Source: Streptomyces sp. NBC_00224 (lineage in GTDB: Bacteria; Actinomycetota; Actinomycetes; Streptomycetales; Streptomycetaceae). Taken from it: DNA of 64,000 nucleotides. Positions within the stretch are counted from its first letter, which is position 1; each line of letters opens with the position of its first letter. A program made the position numbers and the translations under genes. The stretch covers positions 7,639,001 through 7,703,000 of the forward strand of contig NZ_CP108106.1 in the NCBI RefSeq assembly GCF_041435195.1. Direction: 5' to 3'. The notes under the pieces were generated by a model. The model was given only the letters and a program-made list of their open reading frames with translations, ran no database searches and was not told the DNA's origin. Below are positions 8,510-37,271 of this stretch, piece by piece.

Positions 8510-9355
8510 GTGAACCGGCCGGTCCCCGGGGGCGCGCTCCCCCTGGCAGCAGCCTCTGCCGACAGCGGGGTGTTCGACGTGCCCGGGCACGCGGACCTGG
8601 TGGCGAAGGTGTTCCGCGGACCGTGTCCGCCCGGCCGCGCAGAACGGCTCCGCCATCTCATCGAGCTCCCCGACGCCATGAGCGCGGCCGAGCGCGACAT
8701 ACTCCGGACGGCCAGCTGCTGGCCGCTCGCCGCCCTGGTGGACCAGGGCGGCGACGTGGTGGGCTGCCTGCTGCCGAAAGCGCCCGAGAAGTTCGTCTTC
8801 GACCGCACCACCCCCTCGGGTCGGACGCACGCCGGATACCTGGAAATCGACTGGCTGGCCAACCCCGACGACGTGCTGGAACGCCGTGGCATCCCGCCGC
8901 AGGACATGCGGTCGCGGGCCGCGGTGTGCCGAAGCATCACCACCGTGGCCGCGGTGCTGGAAAGACACGACCTGGTCTACTCGGACTGGTCGTACTCGAA
9001 CGCCTTCTGGTGCGTGGAGGACCACTCCGCCTACGTCATCGACGTCGACGGATGCGCCCCGCACAGCAGCCCGAACGTACAACAGCCGGGATGGGAGGAC
9101 CCATTGACACCATCCACCTCGGCAGCCGACAAGTACGTCGACCGGTACCGCCTCGCCCTCTTGGCCGCGCGCTGCCTCACCGGCCGACGCCGGGCCGATC
9201 ACGTGGTGCACGCGCTGGGGCGCGGCACCGACGGCCTGGACGGCGCCCCTGGCCTTCGCACGGTCCTCCTGCGCATGCTCCTGTCGCCCGAGCGGGAGCA
9301 GCGGCCGTCGGCACATCAACTTCTCGTTGAACTGGTGGCCGCAGCAGAGGGTTAG
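8510..9355 (+). CDS. Atypical protein-kinase-fold protein paired with the VWA protein
   Basis: This 281-residue protein shows kinase landmarks. HADLVAKVF has the ATP-anchoring Lys (K33), [11 protein letters not shown] is a catalytic loop with Asp159 and Asn164 in D-x4-N spacing, and [11 protein letters not shown] replaces the DFG motif. [17 protein letters not shown] and [11 protein letters not shown] are C-lobe helices. The glycine loop is not recognisable, but the catalytic residues are retained, so it may be active. The start is GTG at 8510 after ACGAGGA. With the upstream HTH-VWA gene it forms a two-gene unit whose products probably work together. The substrate is unknown. Confidence 0.65.
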
Positions 9356-26297: not shown

Positions 26298-27212
26298 TCA
26301 CCCCTGGAACGGCCCCCGCCCCAGCTGCTCCCGTACGGGTGTCACCGGCGCGGCGACCACCGTACGGCGCTGCCAGTTGGCGCCGTCGACCACCAAGGTG
26401 TGGCCGCTGATGAAACGGGCGTACGGGGAGGCCAGGAAGGTCGCCGCCCAGCCGAGCTCCCGGGGCTCGCCCACCCGTAACGCGGGCTGGCGGAGGTCCA
26501 GTTCGCCGCGCGCCGCCGCGTCCTCCAGGCCCGACCAGATGGCCTCGGGCATGTCCGGGTGCGGGAAGAGCCCCGGAACGAGCCCGTTGACCTGGATGCC
26601 GTAGGGACCCCACTCCACCGCGAGCGTCTCGACCAGGTTCCGCACCCCGGCCTTCGCCGCCGCCGAATGGGCGTACCCCGGGCCGCCCGTCCAGGCGTAC
26701 GACGCACCCACGTTGATCACCGACCCGGGCGTCCCGGCCGCGAGATGGCGGCGGCCGAACTCGCGGGTCGTGAACCAGGTCCCGGTCAGCGTGATGTCCA
26801 CGACCGCGCGCCAGGCGTTGGGCGACAAGTCCTCGGCGGGGGAGGGGAAGTTGGCGGCGGCGCTGTTGACGAGCACGCCGGGTACCCCGAACTCCCGCTC
26901 GGCCAGGTCGAAGGCCGCGCCGACCCGCTCCGGATCCCGGACGTCGCACACGGCGACGACCACTCGCCCACCCAGCCCCACCAACTCCTCCCGAGCCGCC
27001 TTCAGCCGCTCCTCGGAGCGCCCCACGATCACCAAGTCCGCCCCCAAACGGGCGAATTCGGCGGCCATCGCCTTGCCGAGCCCGGATCCACCGCCGGTCA
27101 CCAGGACCACGGTGTCGTCGTAGGTCCCCGGTGGCAGCGCGCGGGAGCCGGGCGGGGGAGGGGCGGGGAGGCCAGGGAGCGGGGCGGTGGGAGGTGTGGT
27201 GTCGTCCGTCAT
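26298..27212 (-). CDS. SDR family oxidoreductase (2,4-dienoyl-CoA reductase-like)
   Basis: This 304-residue protein has the Rossmann signature VLVTGGGSGLGKAMA, the NVSAA-type block as VLVNSAAANFPSPAEDLSPN, and ASYAWTGGPGYAHSAAAKAG. In this last block the conserved Lys follows a modified Tyr spacing, as in 2,4-dienoyl-CoA reductases. A 28-residue proline-rich N-terminal leader precedes the fold. Together with the convergent enoyl-CoA hydratase-like gene it suggests unsaturated fatty acyl-CoA catabolism. The NADP/NAD preference cannot be settled. Confidence 0.85.
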   Translation of the reverse strand: MTDDTTPPTAPLPGLPAPPPPGSRALPPGTYDDTVVLVTGGGSGLGKAMAAEFARLGADLVIVGRSEERLKAAREELVGLGGRVVVAVCDVRDPERVGAAFDLAEREFGVPGVLVNSAAANFPSPAEDLSPNAWRAVVDITLTGTWFTTREFGRRHLAAGTPGSVINVGASYAWTGGPGYAHSAAAKAGVRNLVETLAVEWGPYGIQVNGLVPGLFPHPDMPEAIWSGLEDAAARGELDLRQPALRVGEPRELGWAATFLASPYARFISGHTLVVDGANWQRRTVVAAPVTPVREQLGRGPFQG

Positions 27213-27283
27213 GGCCGCATCCCTACCGCTGAGACCCCGAATCCACCAGACAAGACCACTGAGGAGCCGTCAAAATCCCTACC

Positions 27284-28171
27284 GTGGCACTGACTCAGGA
27301 CGAATCGGCGATCGCGGCGGTCTGGGACCAGCAGAACGTCTGGTCGCGGAGCGCGGACCGGCTGAAGAAGGCCGTGGAGGGGGCGCGCAGCAAGGCGCTG
27401 CTGCTCGCCATCCTCGCGGCGGTGCTCGGGACCGGCTCCGCCCAGACGATGGGCCACAGCGAGGTGGCCGGCAAGGCGCTCGCCTTCGCCGCGGCCCTGG
27501 CGGCGGGGGCGGCGCCGCTGCTCGCCCAGCGCGGCGGGCCGACCCGGCTCAGCGACTGGATCCGAGTGCGCGCCGTGTCCGAGGCACTGAAGGCCGAGGT
27601 GTACACGTGCCTGGCGCGGGTCGGGCCCTACCGGGACCTGGCGGGCGCGGGCGCGCTGCTGGCCGAGCGCGGGCGTGCGTACCGGACAGACGGCGGCGAC
27701 CTGATCCGGTACACCGCCGGGATCGCCGCCCTCCCGAGGCCGCTGCCGCCGGTGACCGACCTCGACTCGTACGTCGAGTACCGGCTGCGTCGCCAGATCG
27801 AGACGTACTACCGGCCCAAGGCAGAGTGGATGCGCAGGAAGGTCGTGCTGGTGGGCCGCGTGGAACTGGGTCTCGGTGGTCTGGCTGCCGTGCTGGCGGC
27901 GTTCGCGGGCGTGTTCTCGGCCGGGGGGTTCGCCGCGTGGGTGCCGGTGGTGGCGTCGGTCTCGGTCGCGCTGACCGCGCACGCCATCGCCCAGCGGTAC
28001 TCGTATCAGCAGCTGGAATTCATGCGTACGGCTGAGGAGTTGGAGAGGTTGCTGGCTCGCTGGGAGGGTACGGCTGGCGCTACTGGGACGCCCGAGGCGT
28101 TTGTCGCCGAGTGCGAGCACGTCATCTCGATCCAGAACGAGGCGTGGATGATTCGCTGGACGGTGGGCTGA
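27284..28171 (+). CDS. SLATT / DUF4231-type membrane protein
   Basis: This 295-residue protein has two hydrophobic pairs: ALLLAILAAVLGTG with ALAFAAALAAGAAPLL, and LGLGGLAAVLAAFAGVFSAGG with AAWVPVVASVSVALTAHAIA. Between them lies a soluble helical segment containing YVEYRLRRQIETYYRPKAEW, typical of DUF4231. The following QRYSYQQLEFMRTAEELERL is the SLATT-type amphipathic helix. SLATT proteins are predicted pore-forming effectors in bacterial conflict systems (Burroughs and colleagues). The stop overlaps the NACHT start by one base (TGATG), so the two are coupled. The start is GTG at 27284. Confidence 0.82.
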   Translation: MALTQDESAIAAVWDQQNVWSRSADRLKKAVEGARSKALLLAILAAVLGTGSAQTMGHSEVAGKALAFAAALAAGAAPLLAQRGGPTRLSDWIRVRAVSEALKAEVYTCLARVGPYRDLAGAGALLAERGRAYRTDGGDLIRYTAGIAALPRPLPPVTDLDSYVEYRLRRQIETYYRPKAEWMRRKVVLVGRVELGLGGLAAVLAAFAGVFSAGGFAAWVPVVASVSVALTAHAIAQRYSYQQLEFMRTAEELERLLARWEGTAGATGTPEAFVAECEHVISIQNEAWMIRWTVG

Positions 28172-30381
28172 TGGAACCGTCTCCGGTGTTGCTGCGGGAC
28201 GCGGAGTTCGAGAGCCGGTACCTCGACTTCGTGGCCAGGAAGTACGACCGGGTGGAGGTCTTCGGTTTTGACCTCGATTCGAGACGGCCCAGGGGCGGCT
28301 GGCCGTTGCTTGACCTGTACACCGACCTGATGACCGTCGGTGAGGCCGGGGCGCCCGCGGAGATGACGGCGGGGATGGCACTGGCCGGGCGTCGGCGAAC
28401 GCTGGTGCGCGGCGCGGCGGGCTCCGGAAAGACGACGCTGCTGTGGCGCATGGCCGTCTCGGCCGCACAGGGGCAGCGCACCGCGAGGGACCATCTGCAC
28501 GAACACATCCCCTTCGTCCTGCCGATGAGATACATCCAGCTGGGTGGCGGGCTGCCACGCCCCACGGGGTTCCTCGCCTCGGCGGGTCTGATGATCGCGG
28601 ACGAACAGCCTTCGGGCTGGGCGGAGCGCGTCCTCGCGGCAGGGCGGGGCCTCCTGCTCATCGACGGCGTCGATGAGGTGCAGGAGCCCGAGCGGTCCGC
28701 GATCCGCTCCTGGCTGGGCGAGTTACTGACGGCATATCCGCTCTGCTCGTACGTCGTGACCACGCGCACCCAGGCCGTGCCCGAATCATGGCTGGCGGAA
28801 TGGGAGTTCGCCGCCCTCGAACTGGCCCCGTTCGATTCCGAGGACATTCAGCAACTCATCACCCGCTGGTACGCGGTGACCTCGGCGGGCAGGGGCGACC
28901 CGACGGAAACGGCCGCTCTGGAGCGCAGGCGGGACGCACTGCTGGCCGCCGTCGTCGAACGGCCCGACCTGAGGGAGATGGCGAGCAACCCTCTGCTGTG
29001 CTCGTTGCTGTGCGCCGTGCACGACGAGCGCGGCGCCCTACTGCCCCACACCCGTTGGGAGCTCTATGACGCCGTGCTCTCGATGATGCTGAGCCGACGG
29101 GACGAACAGCGGCGCATCTCGGCGCACGACATCACCGAATTCGGGCGAGAACCCCAGATCCAGGTGCTGCAACACCTCGCCTACTGGTTGCAGCGCAACG
29201 GTCAGACCGACGTGGACCTCGCGAGAGCCCACGATCTGATCGCCGGGCTGCTTCCGTCGCTTCCCAGGCTCGCCGCCCAAGGGACCCCCGAGACGCTGCT
29301 CGCGTATCTACGGGAACGCAGCGGCCTCCTCGCGGCGTCCGCACCCGACCGCATCGGCTTCGTACACCGGACCTTCCAGGCCTACCTCGCGGCGAAAGCG
29401 GCCGTCGAGCAGGGGGACTTCGGGCTGCTGTTGGCCAGGTCGGACGACCTGAGCTGGCAGGACGTCGTGCTGATGGCGTTCGGCCATGCCCGGCGGCGCG
29501 ATTCCAGGCAGCTGTTCGTCAACCTTCTGCACCGTGCCGAAGAGAATCCCGCGAGCCGCGTCCGCCTCCAACTGCTGGCCGCGGCGGCGCTGGGTTACAC
29601 CACCGAAGTCGAACCCGAGGTGCGCGAACAGATCGAGCACCGATTGGCCCAGCTGATCCCACCCCGGACGCCCGCCGAGTCGGATGCTCTGGCCGAAGTG
29701 GGCGAACTGGTACTGGAGTTCATGCCGTCGCCCGACAATCTCGACCCCGACGGCCCCGAGGCGCGCATGATCGTGCGCACCGCCCAGCGGATCGGCGGCC
29801 CCGCAGCCCATGAGCTGCTACGACGTTTCGTCGAGGCACGCAGGCTGCGGGCCGCCCAAGTGCAGCGTCCGCCCGCCCGGCCCGCCCCGGATTCCGTCCG
29901 GGTCGATTCGTGGCCCACCGGGCCACGCCAAGTGGCCTCCACACGACGGACATTGGAGCTCTCCGGCACCGATGTCCCGCCAGACCTCGACCGGCTCGCC
30001 GCGACCGTCCACCACGTCGTCTGGCGCGCCGCCGCGCCCCCGTACACCGTCCTGCGTCGACTGCCCCTGCTGCGCACCCTGGTCATTGCGGATACCCCGG
30101 CCCTGACGGACCTCGACGGCCTCGCCCGGCTGCCCCGCCTGCGTGCGCTCCGGATCACCGGCTGTCCGCTCCTCGTCGACCTCACGGCCCTCGCCCTCAC
30201 CGGTGTGGTGTTCCTCGACGTGTCGCCGAACCCCGGGGCCGCCGCACTCGCCGCGCTCGCCGGTGCGCCGCGTTTGCGGGTGCTCGGATTCCCTTGGCCC
30301 GCAGGGGACTTCGACCTGGAGGGGCTGCGGCGCAGTCTGCCGGGAGTGGAGCTGGTGCCGCGTCACGTCGTCCGCATGTGA
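28171..30381 (+). CDS. NACHT-domain NTPase with C-terminal LRR-like repeats (NLR-like)
   Basis: This 736-residue protein has Walker A GAAGSGKTTL (81-90), Walker B LLLIDGVDEV (161-170) with the extra acidic residue typical of NACHT, and VVTTRTQ as sensor. A winged-helix/helical region follows (NPLLCSLLCAVHDERGALLP, VHRTFQAYLAAKAA), as in bNACHT proteins. The last ~115 residues contain leucine-rich repeats: LRRLPLLRTLVIADTPALTD, LARLPRLRALRITGCPLLVD and APRLRVLGFPW. Bacterial NACHT proteins protect against phage. The LRR end is the likely sensor. It is coupled to the upstream SLATT gene and followed after 55 nt by the MoxR gene. Confidence 0.87.
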   Translation: MEPSPVLLRDAEFESRYLDFVARKYDRVEVFGFDLDSRRPRGGWPLLDLYTDLMTVGEAGAPAEMTAGMALAGRRRTLVRGAAGSGKTTLLWRMAVSAAQGQRTARDHLHEHIPFVLPMRYIQLGGGLPRPTGFLASAGLMIADEQPSGWAERVLAAGRGLLLIDGVDEVQEPERSAIRSWLGELLTAYPLCSYVVTTRTQAVPESWLAEWEFAALELAPFDSEDIQQLITRWYAVTSAGRGDPTETAALERRRDALLAAVVERPDLREMASNPLLCSLLCAVHDERGALLPHTRWELYDAVLSMMLSRRDEQRRISAHDITEFGREPQIQVLQHLAYWLQRNGQTDVDLARAHDLIAGLLPSLPRLAAQGTPETLLAYLRERSGLLAASAPDRIGFVHRTFQAYLAAKAAVEQGDFGLLLARSDDLSWQDVVLMAFGHARRRDSRQLFVNLLHRAEENPASRVRLQLLAAAALGYTTEVEPEVREQIEHRLAQLIPPRTPAESDALAEVGELVLEFMPSPDNLDPDGPEARMIVRTAQRIGGPAAHELLRRFVEARRLRAAQVQRPPARPAPDSVRVDSWPTGPRQVASTRRTLELSGTDVPPDLDRLAATVHHVVWRAAAPPYTVLRRLPLLRTLVIADTPALTDLDGLARLPRLRALRITGCPLLVDLTALALTGVVFLDVSPNPGAAALAALAGAPRLRVLGFPWPAGDFDLEGLRRSLPGVELVPRHVVRM

Positions 30382-30436
30382 GGCGGGGCGCGGGCGTGCA
30401 CAATGACTTCCGGACGCACCGTTGAGGGAGGGCCGC

Positions 30437-31336
30437 GTGCTGCGGTACGACAAGGAGTTCGACCCGAGGAGCGACGGTCAGGGGGCCGACGGCCCCGGTG
30501 ATCCGGCCGCGAGCCCGGGGCGGTACGCCGCCGACGACGAGGTGTACGTATTCGACGACGACGAAGTCGTCCTCGCGGTCAACGTCGCGCTCAAGACGGG
30601 GCGCCCCCTGCTGCTGTTCGGCCCGCCGGGCTCCGGCAAGTCCACCCTCGCCCCCAACGTGGCCAGGATCCTGGGCTGGGAGTACTACGCGCACGTGGTC
30701 ACGGCCCGCACCGAGCCGGAGGACCTGCTGTGGCGGTTCGACGCGCTGAAGCGGCTCAACGACGCGCAGGCGCAGCAGTTGGACGACGACATGGGGCACT
30801 ACTACACCAAGGGTCCGCTGTGGCGGGCCTTCGCGGCCCCCGGTGGCAAGCGATCGGTCGTCCTCATCGACGAGATCGACAAGGCGGACCCGGATCTACC
30901 GAACAGCCTGCTGGGACCGCTCGGTTCGCTGTCGTTCCCCGTACCGTGGGACGACGAGGATTCGATTTCCGTACCGCCGGAGCGAGCGCCGTTCGTGGTG
31001 ATCACGACCAACGACGAGCGTGAGCTTCCCCGGCCGTTCCTGCGCCGCTGCATCGTCTTCGAGCTGGGGTCACCGACCAAGAAACACCTGCTGAAGGTCG
31101 CGGGCTCGCACCTCGGGGAGCGGTACGAACCGGAGCTCGCGGACAAGGTCGCCGATCACATTCTGGACGTCCGCAAGAAGCTGGAGGATCCGGCGGCCGG
31201 CCCCAGTACCGCCGAGTACCTGGACGCGCTCAAGGCCAGCCAGCAACTCGGTGTGGTGCCCGGCACGCCCGAGTGGGCCGCGCTGGAGGCGGTGACCCTG
31301 CGCAAACGGCGCGACGGAATGGAGCCCACCGCGTGA
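30437..31336 (+). CDS. MoxR-type AAA+ ATPase
   Basis: This 299-residue ATPase has Walker A FGPPGSGKST (61-70), Walker B VVLIDEIDKADPD (141-153) and sensor-1 VITTNDERELPRPFLRRC (188-205) with the arginine finger. It matches MoxR-like AAA+ proteins, which usually partner with vWA proteins as metal- or nucleotide-dependent chaperone switches. The GTG at 30437 has GAGGGAGGG five bases upstream, better than the TTG at 30422. The GTGA overlap at its end couples it to the vWA-like gene. It is third in the putative conflict operon. Confidence 0.88.
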   Translation: MLRYDKEFDPRSDGQGADGPGDPAASPGRYAADDEVYVFDDDEVVLAVNVALKTGRPLLLFGPPGSGKSTLAPNVARILGWEYYAHVVTARTEPEDLLWRFDALKRLNDAQAQQLDDDMGHYYTKGPLWRAFAAPGGKRSVVLIDEIDKADPDLPNSLLGPLGSLSFPVPWDDEDSISVPPERAPFVVITTNDERELPRPFLRRCIVFELGSPTKKHLLKVAGSHLGERYEPELADKVADHILDVRKKLEDPAAGPSTAEYLDALKASQQLGVVPGTPEWAALEAVTLRKRRDGMEPTA

Positions 31337-32451
31337 GCGGGCGCGGTGAACTCTTCCTCGGCGATCTGGTGCGGGCCATGGCCGAGTTGAAGCCCGCGGA
31401 CCTGGCCACCGCGGTCGCCATGGCCGCTCTGTTGGGGCAGGGGCACCGTACGCCCACGGCCCTGCCGCAGGGCCGCGTCGTCCAGGCCGTCGGCCGGGGC
31501 ACGGGGACCGGTCGAGCCAGGGCCGTACGGCTGGAGGAGGCGTCCGGCGGTCCTCGTCGCGGCACGCCCGCATCACCTCCCCGGGTCGTCACCGCCGAGC
31601 GGGGACCGCGCACGGAGCGGCCGGACGACCCTTCCGGAGCGGAGGGGGAGGACACCGAGCACGGCGGCGGGGAGCGGGCGGTCCTGCTGGCCGACAGGCC
31701 GGTCGACTTCTCGCTCACCGCGATCGGCGGACCTCCGCCGCAGCCTGCGGTGACGGACGGGGCGAACGGTTCAGCCGCCGGCGCCGGGCTGCCGGAGCGC
31801 GGGACCGCCGCCGCCCCGCTCTCCCACGAGCCGCCCTGGAAAGGGGACTGGGCCCGGGGAATCATGTTCGCGGTGGTGGCCACTCCGGTGCAGAGCAGAG
31901 AGGTCGACCAGCGGGCTCTGCTGCGGGGCGTCGCGGGCCGCCAGGCGCTGCGGGCCGTACCGCGTCGACGCCGGTTCAGCACCCGGCGCGGTGCGCAACT
32001 GCTGCTCGACCACGGCCCGGGCATGGCGCCGTTCCGCGACGACGGACTGTGGCTGCGCGAACTGGTGGGCAGCATCGCCGGACGCGACCGGGTCGAGGTG
32101 CTGAGGTTCCGGGGCGCCCCGGGACGCGGGGTGGTGCGCCAGGATCCCCTCACGATCGACCCGTACCGGCCGCCGCCGCCCGGCACACCGGTGATCCTCT
32201 TCTCCGACCTCGGCCGGATGCGGCCACCGTTCGCGGGGCAGGGAGTCGCGGGTCCGCAGGAGTGGCGCGCGTTCGTCCACACGGTGGCGCACTCCGGCTG
32301 CCGCGTCATCTGCCTGACTCCGTACGAGAGCGCCGACTATCCGGCCCTGCTGCGCAAGAAGGTGGCGTTCGTCCCCCTGGACCGGCGTGTGTCGCTGCGG
32401 CACGCACGGGAGGCGACGGCGCGGGTGCGTGGCTGGCTGGAGTGCCCATGA
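31333..32451 (+). CDS. vWA-like protein, MoxR partner, degenerate metal site
   Basis: This is a 372-residue protein. A helical N-terminus (ELFLGDLVRAMAELKPADLA) is followed by a disordered Pro/Gly/Arg-rich linker from about 55 to 165. Residues ~215-360 have the strand pattern of a vWA fold: AQLLLDHGPGMAPF in place of the D-x-S-x-S metal motif, DRVEVLRFRG, PVILFSDLGRM, and GCRVICLTPYE. The aspartate is kept (D226) but the serines are not, so metal binding is doubtful. It overlaps MoxR by GTGA and the next gene by ATGA. The fold assignment is by pattern only. Confidence 0.6.
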   Translation: MSGRGELFLGDLVRAMAELKPADLATAVAMAALLGQGHRTPTALPQGRVVQAVGRGTGTGRARAVRLEEASGGPRRGTPASPPRVVTAERGPRTERPDDPSGAEGEDTEHGGGERAVLLADRPVDFSLTAIGGPPPQPAVTDGANGSAAGAGLPERGTAAAPLSHEPPWKGDWARGIMFAVVATPVQSREVDQRALLRGVAGRQALRAVPRRRRFSTRRGAQLLLDHGPGMAPFRDDGLWLRELVGSIAGRDRVEVLRFRGAPGRGVVRQDPLTIDPYRPPPPGTPVILFSDLGRMRPPFAGQGVAGPQEWRAFVHTVAHSGCRVICLTPYESADYPALLRKKVAFVPLDRRVSLRHAREATARVRGWLECP

Positions 32452-35357
32452 CGAGCCACCCCGAGGTGCCGGAGGCGTACCTGCCGTCACAGGCCGACCG
32501 CGCCATGGAGGAGTACATCCCGCAGCTCGCGCGGAGCCGGCCCCAACTCGTCCATCTCGCCGAGTGCCTGTCGCTCGCGGCCGGAGTGGAGCGGCCGCTG
32601 CTGCGACGCGCCCGGCTGCGCTTCCTGCCGCGTTCGTCGGCCGGTCTGGAGGCCGAGCTGTGGTTCTCCCCGCTGGTGGAGTCGGCGAGCGAGAATTCTC
32701 TGCTGCTCGACCCGGCCGCGGCGGCCGTCCTGCGGCGACGCCTCGCACTCCGGCCTCGTCAATTCGTTCAGGACGTACGGGACTTGATGGTCGAGGCGCA
32801 TCTGGGCGCGCAGCCGGTCGCCCGCTGGTTCGAGGACCTGCTGTGGGCCGACCTCTTCCCGGCCACGTCGACGCCCGAGCACATCGGCGAGCAGTTGCGG
32901 CGGGTGCTGCACGCGGTCACGGCGACCGGGCATGCGGCCGACGAGATCGGGCGCTGGGCGCTGCACTATGTGCCGCGCCTGCCGAGTGGGGTGCGCCGGT
33001 ACGACGACGCCTGGCGGATTCAGGTGGCCTCCTCCGAACGCCTCGGTCTGGCGCCGCCGGAGGACCACTTCCCGCGCCCGTCCGGCACGACGGCCGCGGC
33101 GCGGGCTTTGGTGCAGCGGGACATCCCCGTCGGCGTGGTGGCCCGCTCCGACGGCTTGGTGCTCAGCCGCCCGCCGGTCGAGGGGGCGCGGACGGTTCTG
33201 GCTGCGGGGGTGCGTTCGGCACGGGTCGAGGCGGCGAGTGTGCTCGCGCCCCAATCCGCGCCCGTGCAGCTTGAGTTGATGGATGATCAGAGTGTCCATC
33301 TCCCGTTCACCGTGGTGCAGCGGCTGTCCGTGAGCGGCGAGGCCGTCCAGGGGTTGGCACACGCGGGGGCGGCTTACGAGGTGGCGGTCGCGTCGGGTGC
33401 GGAGGTGCGTGCGCGGTACGCCGTACTGCTGGGGGACTGCACGATCGTGCTGCATGCGGACGACGGGACGGAGACGGGCCGCATCCCGGCCGCTGTCGAC
33501 GGCGTGCCGAGGCGGTCCCTCACGCTGTCGGCGGACGGGGTGGCTGTGGCCTGGACTGAGGGGGGACGGGCGATCGAGTACGAACTGGCCACGGGGAGGA
33601 AGGTCGTCTACGAGTGGCCTCGTGAGGAGGGCGCCGCAGTCCGGGTGCGGTTCCTGACGGATCACGCGGCGGGCTTGGCGCAGCTGTGCGTCCGGGGTGA
33701 TCGGCTCTTCCTGACCGGGCCGACAGGAATGCGGCAGGTCGGCGGCCCCGAGACCACTGGGGCACGGGCGTTGTGGCTGTCGGCACGCGGGGAGTATGCG
33801 GCTGTCGTCGACGGATCGGGCGCGTTGTCGGTGCATGAGGGGGAGGCCTTGGTGACGGAGTTCACGAACCGGGAGGTCACCGCCGTCGCCGGAGCGCCGG
33901 ACGAGGCGCACATCGTCTGGGCGGGCGCGGACGGGACGGTTGAGGGGTGGTTCGTCGGCGATGGTGGCGAGGTGGTGAGCCACGGCGTGGCGCCCTGGCA
34001 GATCACCTCCCTGGCCATGAGCGCGGACGGCCGCCGGATCGCGGCCGTGGGCGGCGACTCCAGGCTCCTCCTCTGGGACCTCGCCAGCGGGACGGCCGTC
34101 GCCAGCGAACGGCGGCTGGCCTTCTGCGCAGACCGAGTCTTCGCCCTACCCGACGGCGAATGGGCGGTCTCCGGCACGGGCGGCCCGGTCGAGCTCACCA
34201 CCGACGACGGCCGTCAGTACGTCATCACCCCGGACACCGAGGCCCTGTCCGCCCCGGTGGGCGTGCCCGGCTGGATTCGGGGCGAGGTGATCGCCGTAGT
34301 ACGGGCGGGCCGGGACCCGGTCACGTTCGTCGATCTGGCGGAGGCGATGGAGTCGATCCGGGCGGCGGGCGTCACGTGCCTGACGGTGGGGCCGATCACC
34401 CCGACCGTCAGGGGCGACGTGGAGGGAATCCCCGGCGACGAGGAAATCCCCGACTCCCTGGGCAACTTCGGAGACTTCGTGTCCCTGCTCATGTCCGCCC
34501 ACCACCACGGCGTGCGGATCGTCGTCGACATGGATCTGCGGGCCGTGTACGCGGTCGGCCGGATCCTCCACTCGATGCGCCAGTGGCTGGACCATGACGT
34601 CGACGGCCTGCGCCTGGTCGGCGACCGCCGCCTCGACGCGGACGTACTGCGCGATGTGCGCCACCTGCTGGACGGCTACGACGACCGGGTGCTCATCGGT
34701 ACGCACACCACCGGGCTCCCCGCCACGGCGGACTCCGACTTCGGCGCCACCGGCGCCTTCGTAGCCTGCGATGTCGTGGTGCGGGCCCTGCAGGGGGAGC
34801 TGATCATTGGTATGACCGAAGGCGCCCTGGTCAGGAACGCGCTGGTCAACGCCCAGTTGCCCCTGGGCGCGGCCAGGCCCGGAGCGCAGTGGGGCCATCT
34901 GCTGCCCGACGACCTGACCGCACCCGGGCGAACGGCGTTGGCCCTGCGCGTGCTGCTCGGCCTGCCGGGATGCCCCATCGTTCCGCTGTCGCTCCTCCAG
35001 AACCAGGACCTGGAGGTGGTGAGAATGCTGGAGCTGCGCCGGGATCACCTCGCCCTGTCGCGGGGCGACTGCCGTGAACTCCCGTTGTCCCGACCGCACT
35101 TGCTCGGATTCGTACGGCGGCACGGCGACGAGATCGTGCTCTGCGTCGCCAATGCGGGGGTGCACCGCGAGACGATCGACGTCACCCCTCGCGCACTGGG
35201 CGCCCCGGGCAACGCACGGCTGCTCGACCTCTTCGACGGAACCGTCGCCCCGTGCACCGACAACACCCCCGCCCCCGTTGCCGTCGACGCCGGCGCCGTC
35301 CGCTGGTACCGGCTGCTCCCGATACCCCGCACCGCCGTCTCCGGCCTCGGGGAGTAG
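32448..35357 (+). CDS. WD40-like propeller fused to an inactive trehalose-synthase-like (GH13) domain
   Basis: This 969-residue protein has three parts. Residues ~1-230 are helical with no known match. Residues ~270-600 show WD40/propeller repeats, for example SLAMSADGRRIAAVGGDSRL followed by LLWDLASG. Residues ~620-960 follow GH13 trehalose synthase order: AEAMESIRAAGVTCLTVGPI, HHHGVRIVVDMDLRAV, HDVDGLRLVGDRRL, DDRVLIGTHT, GAQWGHLLPDDLT, LLGLPGCPIVPLSLL, then the C-terminal beta domain LLGFVRRHGDEIVLCVANAG. The nucleophile Asp (R-x-D) is Val724, the acid Glu is Thr752, and the NHD block reads PDD, so it should be catalytically dead. It overlaps the vWA-like gene by ATGA. Confidence 0.7.
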   Translation: MTSHPEVPEAYLPSQADRAMEEYIPQLARSRPQLVHLAECLSLAAGVERPLLRRARLRFLPRSSAGLEAELWFSPLVESASENSLLLDPAAAAVLRRRLALRPRQFVQDVRDLMVEAHLGAQPVARWFEDLLWADLFPATSTPEHIGEQLRRVLHAVTATGHAADEIGRWALHYVPRLPSGVRRYDDAWRIQVASSERLGLAPPEDHFPRPSGTTAAARALVQRDIPVGVVARSDGLVLSRPPVEGARTVLAAGVRSARVEAASVLAPQSAPVQLELMDDQSVHLPFTVVQRLSVSGEAVQGLAHAGAAYEVAVASGAEVRARYAVLLGDCTIVLHADDGTETGRIPAAVDGVPRRSLTLSADGVAVAWTEGGRAIEYELATGRKVVYEWPREEGAAVRVRFLTDHAAGLAQLCVRGDRLFLTGPTGMRQVGGPETTGARALWLSARGEYAAVVDGSGALSVHEGEALVTEFTNREVTAVAGAPDEAHIVWAGADGTVEGWFVGDGGEVVSHGVAPWQITSLAMSADGRRIAAVGGDSRLLLWDLASGTAVASERRLAFCADRVFALPDGEWAVSGTGGPVELTTDDGRQYVITPDTEALSAPVGVPGWIRGEVIAVVRAGRDPVTFVDLAEAMESIRAAGVTCLTVGPITPTVRGDVEGIPGDEEIPDSLGNFGDFVSLLMSAHHHGVRIVVDMDLRAVYAVGRILHSMRQWLDHDVDGLRLVGDRRLDADVLRDVRHLLDGYDDRVLIGTHTTGLPATADSDFGATGAFVACDVVVRALQGELIIGMTEGALVRNALVNAQLPLGAARPGAQWGHLLPDDLTAPGRTALALRVLLGLPGCPIVPLSLLQNQDLEVVRMLELRRDHLALSRGDCRELPLSRPHLLGFVRRHGDEIVLCVANAGVHRETIDVTPRALGAPGNARLLDLFDGTVAPCTDNTPAPVAVDAGAVRWYRLLPIPRTAVSGLGE

Positions 35358-35362
35358 TGGCC

Positions 35363-36649
35363 ATGGCGCGTCCCCGGATCTTCCTGAGCCACAGTTCGCA
35401 GTGCACCCCCGAGTCCGGGTGCGACTGCCGGGCCTATTTGTTCGCGCTCGAAGCGCATCTCGTCGACCTGGGCTGTGAACCGATCGTCGACAAGGGCATC
35501 CTGAGCGGCGGCGACACCTGGTACGGCAAGGTGCTGACCGAGATCAAGAAGTGCCACGGCATGATCATCCTGCTGTCGCCGCACGCACTCGACTCGTACT
35601 ACGTGATGGTGGAGGCGATCGTCGCCGACGCCGAGCGGGCCGGGACCGGCGACGCCTTCGTGGTCCTGCCCGTGACCCTGCCCGGAGTCCGTCGCCGCCA
35701 GCTACCCGACAGCGGGCTCGGCAAGCTGAACCTCGGGCGCTTCGACATGGTGGACTGGAGACGGCAGTACGGTCCCGACCGGCCCCCGAAGAAGATCGCC
35801 ACGTCGCTGCGGCCGCTGATCGAGCGGCAGGGTGCGGTGCCGTACCCGGAGGTCACCGACTTCATCGCGGGGCGGATCTCCGACCTCTCGGACGCGGCCC
35901 TTGAGCACACGGCCGAGATCCTGGGAGTCGCCACCTTCGCCTACGCACGCGGCCACTCGCGCTACGCGGTGGCCCAGGGGCTGCTGGCGGAGCGGCCGGT
36001 CCAGAACGTCGGCGACAGCTGCGCGATGCGCAAGGCCGTCAAGCACTTCCTGCCCAAGGTGAAGAGCCGGGAGCACCGGCAGGAGATCGTCGACCTCGTC
36101 GTGCCGTTCGCCCGGGTCCCCAAGGAGGCGGCCGATCAGCTGCGCCTGGTGGGGGCGAGCGGCGGCGACCGGGTGGCGCTGCTGGGGTCCACGCTCAAAG
36201 AGACCGCGGACATGTACGTGCGCAGGGCGAGCGAGGCCCCGGACTCGTGGCGGGTGCGCAAACCCGCGCCCCGGCACGACGCGGCGGACTTCGTCGAGGG
36301 CGTGATCGCCGAGGTGCGCGCCTGCGTGGTCGACTCGATCGGGTGGGGCTTCGAGTGCGACGACGAGGCTCTGCGGCGGCTGCTCGCGCGTCACGAGGAG
36401 GAGTCGGGGCCGTTCACGATCGTGCTGTACCAGCCGCCGGACGCCGACCTCCTCGACCGTCTGCTCGTCGCTTTCCCCAGGCTGTTGTTCGTCTTCGCCC
36501 ACCAGCAGGCGGCCGCCGCGCGGGGGCGGGCGGGCTCGGTCCGGCTGGCTGGGCTGACGCCGGGACAGGAGCAGGACATGGTGATCACGCACTGGGAGTT
36601 CCAGGAGCTGGCCGTCGCGCGGGACCAGCGTCCGGCGAGGCAGGATTGA
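35363..36649 (+). CDS. TIR-domain protein with long C-terminal region
   Basis: Residues 1-~150 of this 428-residue protein form a TIR domain: RIFLSHSS at the start, FALEAHLVDLGCEPIVDKGI, KKCHGMIILLSPHALDSYYV, and VEAIVADAERAG with a candidate catalytic Glu84. Bacterial TIR effectors cleave NAD+ or make cyclic signals. Residues ~165-300 contain repeated helices (AVAQGLLAERPVQNVGDSCA, VVPFARVPKEAADQLRLVGA). The end looks like an NTPase-derived or ligand domain (GPFTIVLYQPPDADLLDRLL). The ATG at 35363 lies 8 bases after GGGGAG. It is the last gene of the cluster and the likely effector. Confidence 0.8.
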   Translation: MARPRIFLSHSSQCTPESGCDCRAYLFALEAHLVDLGCEPIVDKGILSGGDTWYGKVLTEIKKCHGMIILLSPHALDSYYVMVEAIVADAERAGTGDAFVVLPVTLPGVRRRQLPDSGLGKLNLGRFDMVDWRRQYGPDRPPKKIATSLRPLIERQGAVPYPEVTDFIAGRISDLSDAALEHTAEILGVATFAYARGHSRYAVAQGLLAERPVQNVGDSCAMRKAVKHFLPKVKSREHRQEIVDLVVPFARVPKEAADQLRLVGASGGDRVALLGSTLKETADMYVRRASEAPDSWRVRKPAPRHDAADFVEGVIAEVRACVVDSIGWGFECDDEALRRLLARHEEESGPFTIVLYQPPDADLLDRLLVAFPRLLFVFAHQQAAAARGRAGSVRLAGLTPGQEQDMVITHWEFQELAVARDQRPARQD

Positions 36650-36674
36650 CAAACCACCTTGCCGATTCTGCAAT
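36646..36674 (+). promoter_or_regulatory. Promoter of the XRE-cupin gene, probably leaderless
   Basis: TTGACA (36646-36651), a 17-base spacer and TGCAAT (36669-36674) match a vegetative promoter. Transcription would begin about 7 bases later, at or next to the ATG at 36681, which has no ribosome binding site. The -35 box overlaps the stop codon of the TIR gene. Confidence 0.6.
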
Positions 36675-36680
36675 GGGTGG

Positions 36681-37271
36681 ATGGATGAGCAACGCGCACT
36701 CGACGACGTGCTGACCGAAGTCGGCCCCCGGCTCCGGCGGATCCGCAAGGAGCGCGGGGCCACGCTCGGGGATCTGTCCGCGGCGACCGGGATCTCCGTC
36801 TCCACGCTCTCCCGCCTGGAGTCCGGGAACCGTCGGCCCAGCCTCGAACTGCTGCTGCCGATCGCCCGCGCCCATCAGGTGCCGCTCGACGATCTGGTGG
36901 GCGCGCCGCCGGTCGGCGACCCCCGGGTGCGGGCCAAGCCGATCGTGCGCGGCGGCAAGACCCTGGTGCCGCTCACCCGCCAACCCGGCGGGCTCCAGGC
37001 GTACAAGGTGGTGGACCGGGAGGTGGGCGGTGCGCCCGAGCCGCGCATCCACGAGGGGTACGAGTGGCTGTACGTCCTGGCGGGGCGGCTGCGGCTGGTG
37101 CTCGCCGGGAACGACGTGGTGCTGGGGGCGGGGGAGGCGGCCGAGTTCGACACCCGGCTGCCGCACTGGTTCGGGCCGGCCGGGGACGCGCCGGTGGAGT
37201 ATCTGAGCCTGTTCGGGCCCCAGGGTGAGCGGATGCACGTACGGGCGCGGCCCCGGGGCGGGAGCTCGTAG
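36681..37271 (+). CDS. XRE-family regulator with cupin domain
   Basis: This 196-residue protein has an N-terminal HTH (LRRIRKERGATLGDLSAATG, ISVSTLSRLESGNRRPS). A C-terminal cupin barrel follows, with HEGYEWLYVLAGRLRLVLAG and FDTRLPHWFGPAG supplying histidines. This architecture is a ligand-sensing repressor or activator. The gene has a strong promoter with no leader. It lies directly after the TIR gene but reads as a separate unit. A perfect hairpin at 37289 should terminate it. The ligand and target are unknown. Confidence 0.9.
   Translation: MDEQRALDDVLTEVGPRLRRIRKERGATLGDLSAATGISVSTLSRLESGNRRPSLELLLPIARAHQVPLDDLVGAPPVGDPRVRAKPIVRGGKTLVPLTRQPGGLQAYKVVDREVGGAPEPRIHEGYEWLYVLAGRLRLVLAGNDVVLGAGEAAEFDTRLPHWFGPAGDAPVEYLSLFGPQGERMHVRARPRGGSS

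Follow-up and report, generated by a model that had tools for sequence, protein, structure and literature searches.

A chromosomal island in Streptomyces sp. NBC_00224 with a probable TERNS3-type MoxR-vWA ternary conflict system of a new sub-type

We analysed a 64,000-nucleotide stretch of Streptomyces sp. NBC_00224 (the window; assembly GCF_041435195.1, contig NZ_CP108106.1, positions 7,639,001 to 7,703,000), in which six adjoining genes encode a SLATT protein, a protein with a NACHT domain and leucine-rich repeats (LRR), a MoxR ATPase, a vWA protein, a multidomain protein called gene 5 here, and a TIR protein. We consider it probable that these genes form a chromosomal island and encode a MoxR-vWA ternary conflict system of the TERNS3 type, in a new sub-type, which would act by a mechanism of the abortive-infection type. 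In window coordinates, the genes are:

27284..28171, plus strand: SLATT protein gene (gene 1), 295 amino acids
28171..30381, plus strand: NACHT-LRR gene (gene 2), 736 amino acids
30437..31336, plus strand: MoxR gene (gene 3), 299 amino acids
31333..32451, plus strand: vWA gene (gene 4), 372 amino acids
32448..35357, plus strand: gene 5, 969 amino acids, with an N-terminal helical domain, a beta-propeller and a pseudo-GH13 domain
35363..36649, plus strand: TIR protein gene (gene 6), 428 amino acids

An earlier note on this DNA had placed the six plus-strand genes at these positions, which hold, and had implied six junctions between them (four overlaps and two gaps). The true number is five: three overlaps (1, 4 and 4 nucleotides) and two gaps (55 and 5 nucleotides). 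The SLATT and NACHT genes share the single nucleotide, and the 55-nucleotide gap between NACHT and MoxR is the widest of the five. A scan for signals found no promoter-like site and a single terminator-like one, which lies on the minus strand; shuffled sequences gave more. The product families named in the earlier note stand in part: Pfam matches to SLATT, NACHT, MoxR and TIR exceed the cut-off, those to WD40, LRR_4 and pieces of amylase fall below it, and gene 4 is unmatched in the Pfam scan.

The SLATT protein is composed of two SLATT-like units in tandem, DUF4231 at residues 20-118 (67 bits, cut-off 25) and SLATT_1 at residues 163-288 (82 bits, cut-off 26). It has hydrophobic stretches at residues 38-56 and 187-236 and is a predicted membrane effector. 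Gene 2 encodes a NACHT STAND NTPase with a C-terminal LRR-like region, and its Walker A motif in the window, GAAGSGKT at residues 81-88, is intact; a comparison by sequence with solved structures found no relative. The MoxR protein is an AAA+ ATPase with Pfam matches to AAA_5 and bpMoxR, and its Walker A (GPPGSGKS) and Walker B motifs are kept in 13/13 sequences. Its putative co-chaperone, the vWA protein, has MIDAS aspartates (D226 and D292) that are invariant in 21/21; searched as a profile against solved structures, it gave no usable match. The last two genes encode several domains each:

32499..33347, plus strand: N-terminal domain of gene 5, residues 18-300, mainly helical
33405..34232, plus strand: WD40-type beta-propeller of gene 5, residues 320-595, Pfam WD40 below cut-off
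34233..35342, plus strand: pseudo-GH13 domain of gene 5, related to trehalose synthase
35810..36634, plus strand: C-terminal domain of the TIR protein, residues 150-424

The catalytic aspartate nucleophile of GH13 enzymes is missing at the aligned position in all 14 sequences of the pseudo-GH13 domain. The TIR protein has a TIR fold with a conserved catalytic-type glutamate, Glu84, and by these two features is a predicted NADase that would cleave NAD+. Its C-terminal domain is alpha+beta in the predicted model. In searches with the whole proteins, the matches listed for gene 5 and the TIR protein belong to the GH13 and TIR domains.

The gene order recurs in other genomes, as a check proposed in the earlier note had called for. 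Gene 5 was searched in 121 and then in 392 genomes of the genus. Counting matches that span the N-terminal domain and the propeller, it is rare (10/392 genomes); a wider tally of 186/392 consists mostly of pieces of ordinary GH13 or WD40 proteins and was not used. The gene-5 loci examined, by BLAST and hidden Markov model (HMM) searches, are the window and 13 others. The order SLATT-NACHT-MoxR-vWA-gene 5-TIR on one strand is found in four of these 14 loci, namely the window, S. melanogenes (L036), L018 and L067, and NACHT directly precedes MoxR in 12 (in 11 of the 13 other loci, one of the 11 being cut by a contig end). A pattern scan of named genomes returned five rows, all from Streptomyces, of which one (L037) repeats genome G192. 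L038 has five of the genes. A divergent clade, type B (L069-L073), has NACHT-MoxR-vWA-gene 5-TIR, with the contig of L070 ending before TIR and that of L072 ending within NACHT. Wherever the window and the type A and B loci hold the TIR protein, its gene stands at the 3' end. The two clades differ in the NACHT P-loop. Type A, to which the window belongs, mostly keeps the active-type P-loop, which is intact in five other type A loci and has Lys replaced by Arg in L018. Type B has lost the P-loop Lys, which is His in all four loci that show it (two of them near-identical), and the two type B NACHT proteins that were scanned score under the Pfam cut-off.

Streptomyces sp. ERV7 (L037, about position 9102; the same genome as L118) keeps gene 5 and TIR in a remnant without SLATT, NACHT, MoxR and the N-terminus of vWA, the product of a deletion or of the assembly. 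Its vWA match in BLAST begins at residue 72, which we accept over an apparent HMM match to the vWA N-terminus. In L039, a GAF-PAS-GGDEF protein (L039:13877-16063, minus strand), convergent with the TIR gene, has the C-terminal LRR-like region of the NACHT protein (HMM E 5e-42), possibly a case of a switch domain swapped on a shared sensor.

Sister loci were reached through the gene-5 N-terminal domain and a vWA profile, and they retain the central genes with other partners. Type C loci (L019, L020, L074, L077, L078 and L082) read TIR-MoxR-vWA-[N-domain + CHAT], with CHAT found in all four of the six that were scanned (L019, L020, L074 and L082). Type D loci (L075, L076 and L080; two of the three scanned) read SLATT-TIR-MoxR-vWA-[N-domain + TIR-NB-ARC-TPR]. 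The TIR gene is 5' in both types. Eight further loci (L119-L126) were chosen on the vWA profile; weak gene-5 matches had also come from two of the genomes concerned, G049 and G067. All eight have the order MoxR-vWA-N-domain and six have an adjoining TIR-domain protein. L124 has the TIR C-terminal domain without TIR, and L126 has neither nearby; its third protein, in another actinobacterial family (L126:10345-13407, plus strand), carries EAD1 and TIR at its C-terminus. The other third-protein modules found by Pfam, in a scan that left out L077, L078, L080, L120 and L122, are TPR (L119), TIR-TPR (L121), NB-ARC-TPR (L123) and FHA-kinase (L125), and kinase matches in L124 and L126 are under the cut-off. 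Two loci have NACHT fused to the gene-5 N-terminal domain without MoxR or vWA: in one (L079:7749-12227, minus strand) a Schlafen-type helicase follows, and in the other (L081:6176-11668, minus strand) an AAA/TPR region follows and SLATT is nearby.

Overall, MoxR, vWA and the N-terminal domain are adjacent in this order in 29/32 classified loci, which were picked by gene-5 or vWA matches, so that one of the three genes is present by construction. The remaining three are L037, in which MoxR is lost, and the two NACHT fusions. The N-terminal domain directly follows the vWA gene in 29/29 loci that have MoxR and vWA, is common to the window and the sister types (hhalign E 2e-28), and may be the 'vWA-L' linker domain. 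A TIR-domain protein adjoins the three genes in 26/29. By hhalign, the window's TIR protein and the 5' TIR proteins of type C have homologous C-terminal domains (probability 92.7, E 4e-7, where nine control comparisons gave E 0.2 or worse); the HMM found this domain in 9/17 sister loci (E 1e-3). The vWA profile itself matches in 9/121 genomes of the genus and in 10/394 genomes sampled from the class, of which three belong to one other family.

The earlier note had read the locus as an immune or conflict system, and the CHAT, TIR-NB-ARC-TPR and EAD1-TIR modules of the sister loci are what conflict systems would have. A housekeeping role, in which a MoxR-vWA chaperone assembles, or inserts a cofactor into, an enzyme of the cell envelope or of trehalose/maltose metabolism, appears very improbable to us. 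Many MoxR-vWA pairs are such chaperones (PMC7159879) and gene 5 does contain a trehalose-synthase-like domain, but that domain has lost its GH13 nucleophile in every sequence, the distribution is rare and patchy, and the partners are TIR, NACHT, SLATT, CHAT and EAD1.

The components of the island evolve at different rates. The ratios of nonsynonymous to synonymous substitution (dN/dS) against S. melanogenes are 0.09 for the TIR domain, 0.15 for MoxR, 0.17 for SLATT and 0.25 for both vWA and pseudo-GH13. NACHT (0.45) and the propeller (0.71) are the fastest. The propeller is the fastest-evolving part of gene 5 (dN/dS range 0.44-0.81), and against L067 the pseudo-GH13 domain is conserved no better than the propeller. 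Since the propeller and NACHT also have raised synonymous divergence (dS), allele exchange may contribute to their rates. For NACHT, dS is about twice that of its neighbours, as if alleles of NACHT alone had been exchanged. Pairwise gene distances among 6-8 type A loci co-vary (p<0.05) in 14 of 15 gene pairs; the exception is SLATT-NACHT (p 0.12).

These data bear on the strongest rival explanation, that two systems share the island: a SLATT-NACHT pair resembling bNACHT proteins and an independent MoxR-vWA-gene 5-TIR system. The absence of significant co-variation between SLATT and NACHT, the elevated dS of NACHT, the width of the 55-nucleotide junction, the inversion or absence of SLATT in several loci, the lack of a NACHT match in L039, and the frequency of related NACHT genes (90/121 genomes of the genus at E 1e-30 or better) are all in its favour. 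However, NACHT stands directly 5' of MoxR in 12 of the 14 gene-5 loci including the window, its distances co-vary with those of MoxR, vWA, gene 5 and TIR (r 0.68-0.90), and it is fused to the N-terminal domain in L079 and L081. We regard two separate systems as unlikely and prefer a single one.

Several observations weigh against a single TERNS3-type system. SLATT lies on the opposite strand in L068 and L040, where the last five genes are in order, and was not found in L037, L038, L039 or L069-L073 (the contig of L072 ends there). L039 has only MoxR-vWA-gene 5-TIR, so NACHT is not universal, and the dS of NACHT against L036 (0.51 over 28171-30381, compared with 0.21-0.30 for its neighbours) hints at separate exchange. 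PADLOC gave weak partial matches only on the six genes. The vWA protein (gene 4) had no match in phages and gene 5 had none in plasmids. The TIR C-terminal domain was missed by the HMM in 8/17 sister loci, including all three of type D. The identity of the N-terminal domain with vWA-L is weakly supported, as its similarity to the region that follows vWA in SAV_2336 proteins reaches hhalign E 0.013 with all types, 0.055 with the sister types and 0.15 with its own type, where seven control comparisons gave E 0.11 or worse. Finally, the match to TERNS3 is one of architecture, compared with the published description only.

The chromosomal context supports the reading as an island. Its extent and immediate neighbours are:

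27213..36680, plus strand: island, between two divergent flanking genes
26298-27212, minus strand: SDR gene, flanking the island
36681-37271, plus strand: XRE-cupin gene, flanking the island

In the related genome G021, the SDR and XRE-cupin genes have divergent orthologues (73 and 76 percent) whose matched ends are about 117 bp apart, an empty site. Because the flanking genes are only ~0.1 kb apart there, gain or loss affected the unit as a whole. In S. melanogenes, ERV7 (L037) and G242 (L067), the island genes lie between matches to the window's neighbours on both sides, the SDR gene itself being unmatched in L067. The flanks examined in L018 have no match to the window's neighbours, and its locus thus sits elsewhere. 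G002 holds ~3.1 kb of other genes at the same site (L117:7900-11013), by eye membrane proteins and a TetR-like regulator, and the chromosomal site is therefore variable. Repeats within each island end are only imperfect GC-rich matches. Between the ends, the longest exact direct match is 7 nucleotides and the longest inverted one 8 (mean in shuffles 7.7), no repeat beyond chance. Cargo of a phage or plasmid was also considered and set aside, on searches of gene 4 in phages and gene 5 in plasmids, the other genes being outside these searches.

The island-like occurrence also bears on whether the same biochemistry might serve programmed cell death or kin recognition in hyphal development rather than defence against phage. 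Such a switch would suit the enrichment of MoxR-vWA ternary systems among multicellular bacteria (PMC7159879). An external antagonist is a better fit to the accessory, island-like occurrence and to the fast evolution of the propeller and NACHT, and we think a developmental role improbable.

Returning to a TERNS3-type conflict system, the composition and order of the locus, the conserved active sites of MoxR and TIR, the dead GH13 domain and the patchy island occurrence can be read from the sequences, as can a conserved core of MoxR, vWA and an N-domain with variable C-terminal module, linked to a TIR protein. The roles assigned to these parts are analogies with their families: STAND sensing, MoxR-vWA remodelling, a TIR signal and a SLATT pore. 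According to the published accounts, MoxR-vWA pairs remodel a bound partner and SLATT acts as a nucleotide-responsive pore (PMC7159879), and TIR in the TERNS3 model mainly makes an NAD-derived signal (PMC8195603). On this basis, the NACHT-LRR protein and the fast-evolving propeller/pseudo-trehalose-synthase protein would sense a sign of infection. Until this trigger, the MoxR ring and its vWA adaptor may hold gene 5 and the TIR protein inactive in a complex, which they would then remodel. The TIR domain would next cleave NAD+ or make an ADP-ribose-type signal, and the tandem SLATT protein would open the membrane, perhaps in response to the signal from TIR. Growth would stop or the hypha would die, preventing the spread of phage. 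The dead trehalose-synthase-like domain is most likely a binding platform or a decoy.

A more elaborate version, which we put forward tentatively and consider rather doubtful, is an immune hybrid: the sensor slot of a MoxR-vWA ternary system would have passed to a NACHT receptor, and the TERNS3-like TIR protein would have moved to the 3' end. Types A and B would then display the passage from an NLR-like switch to an inactive STAND sensor. Some phage protein directed at trehalose/maltose metabolism would be caught by the dead trehalose synthase as an integrated decoy, and the SLATT pore would be gated by the TIR product.

In the cited literature, as far as covered here, MoxR-vWA ternary systems are predicted from gene neighbourhoods, with no experimental test. 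The present locus is compact and brings together a NACHT of the NLR-like kind, a gate formed by a chaperone, an enzyme of the TIR family and a protein of the membrane. With its dead carbohydrate enzyme, it also extends the range of inactive modules that these systems recruit. Because the sister loci differ in single parts, the proposed sensor, gate and effector roles are directly testable, and two clades are on offer that differ in an intact versus an altered NACHT P-loop.

Among the known systems, Kaur et al. 2020 (PMC7159879) defined VMAP, iSTAND, FtsH and beta-propeller MoxR-vWA systems. For VMAP systems, their text describes NACHT, propellers and TIR in fusion with vWA or VMAP, and NACHT, propeller and glycosyltransferase parts in fusion with vWA; SLATT is reported with GTPase-centred systems. 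The FtsH class was rejected, as there is no FtsH gene among the six. The beta-propeller class shares a propeller and the bpMoxR model, which matches gene 3 at 35.5 bits (cut-off 27). In the window, however, the propeller is on a different protein from vWA and not C-terminal to it, and the P-loop is GPPGSGKS, not GxxxTAKS. In addition, the sister MoxR proteins of L019 and L020 are below the bpMoxR cut-off, and the class is described mainly from other phyla. This class was therefore also rejected.

VMAP systems share with the window the MoxR-vWA pair and, by profile comparison (14/15 SAV_2336 loci and 19/20 VMAP-C loci kept; two dropped as too short), related vWA domains. In contrast to them, the window lacks VMAP-C (PF20028), of which the same genome (G000) has three matches, none in the island, and has vWA and effector split and NACHT in its own 5' gene. 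The VMAP MoxR motifs WxhapG and PsWRxa are both present in 3/3 VMAP MoxRs of that genome; the window MoxR lacks the N-terminal WxhapG, and its sole P-x-W-R match is PLWR inside the AAA+ domain. VMAP-C was also rejected as the identity of the gene 6 C-terminal domain (no match, hhalign E 0.1). The three regions of G000, at C1 6050005, 6956199 and 7150973 (L147, L148 and L149), are ordinary VMAP systems of the order VMAP-C-MoxR-SAV_2336. In all three, the protein at the vWA position has only the NCBIfam name 'SAV_2336 N-terminal domain' (NF041121), which links this name to the vWA part of VMAP systems. The name was rejected as a direct label of gene 4 or gene 5, being unlisted at E 0.1 in NCBIfam, with profile-level vWA similarity only.

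The iSTAND and iSTAND2 systems, the latter added together with TERNS3 by Kaur et al. 2021 (PMC8195603), likewise have a STAND-type protein 5' of MoxR-vWA, and the His in the type B NACHT P-loop is as for an inactive STAND. They differ, as compared by description, in that the window's NACHT is recognisable with an intact P-loop, as in five type A loci, where iSTAND has a catalytically inactive STAND, and in the TIR protein with its own C-terminal domain. The bNACHT proteins, which have antiphage activity (PMC12169576), share the central NACHT and an infection-sensing role, whereas the window's NACHT adjoins a multi-gene MoxR-vWA cluster. Two neighbouring NACHT genes elsewhere in the genome (G000:C1:5211146-5216490, L150) are 43 and 36 percent identical to gene 2.

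The closest likeness is to TERNS3, in which the gene ahead of MoxR, on its 5' side, encodes TIR joined to a novel alpha+beta domain, and vWA and the vWA-L/effector protein each have a gene of their own (PMC8195603). The earlier note had called the six-gene system undescribed, which does not apply to its core, since MoxR, vWA, a protein with helical domain and effector, and a TIR protein with its own C-terminal domain correspond to TERNS3 as published. The window shares MoxR, a vWA protein with its own gene (this order being present in the window and in the 29/32 classified loci), an adjoining gene with N-terminal domain and putative C-terminal effector, an actinobacterial origin, and a TIR joined to a further domain that is alpha+beta in the predicted model; one relative, L126, also carries EAD1. 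By architecture, types C and D agree with TERNS3. The window differs by its tandem SLATT, its propeller and pseudo-trehalose synthase as C-terminal module, and the NACHT-LRR that fills the 5' slot. TERNS3 systems have their third component in the conserved 5' gene; because the TIR gene of the window is at the 3' end, we class the six genes as a TERNS3-type variant and not as a member. In one open-access library, MoxR, SLATT and NACHT occur together only in PMC7159879, figures and supplementary tables being outside this scope, where an unlabelled example is possible; 'amylase' and 'GH13' are absent from the main text of that paper, and 'SLATT' and 'amylase' from that of PMC8195603. Within this scope, the elements of the locus not found in print are the 5' NACHT-LRR, the 3' TIR, the tandem SLATT and the dead trehalose-synthase-like domain behind the propeller, which together set this variant apart from the published TERNS3 architecture.

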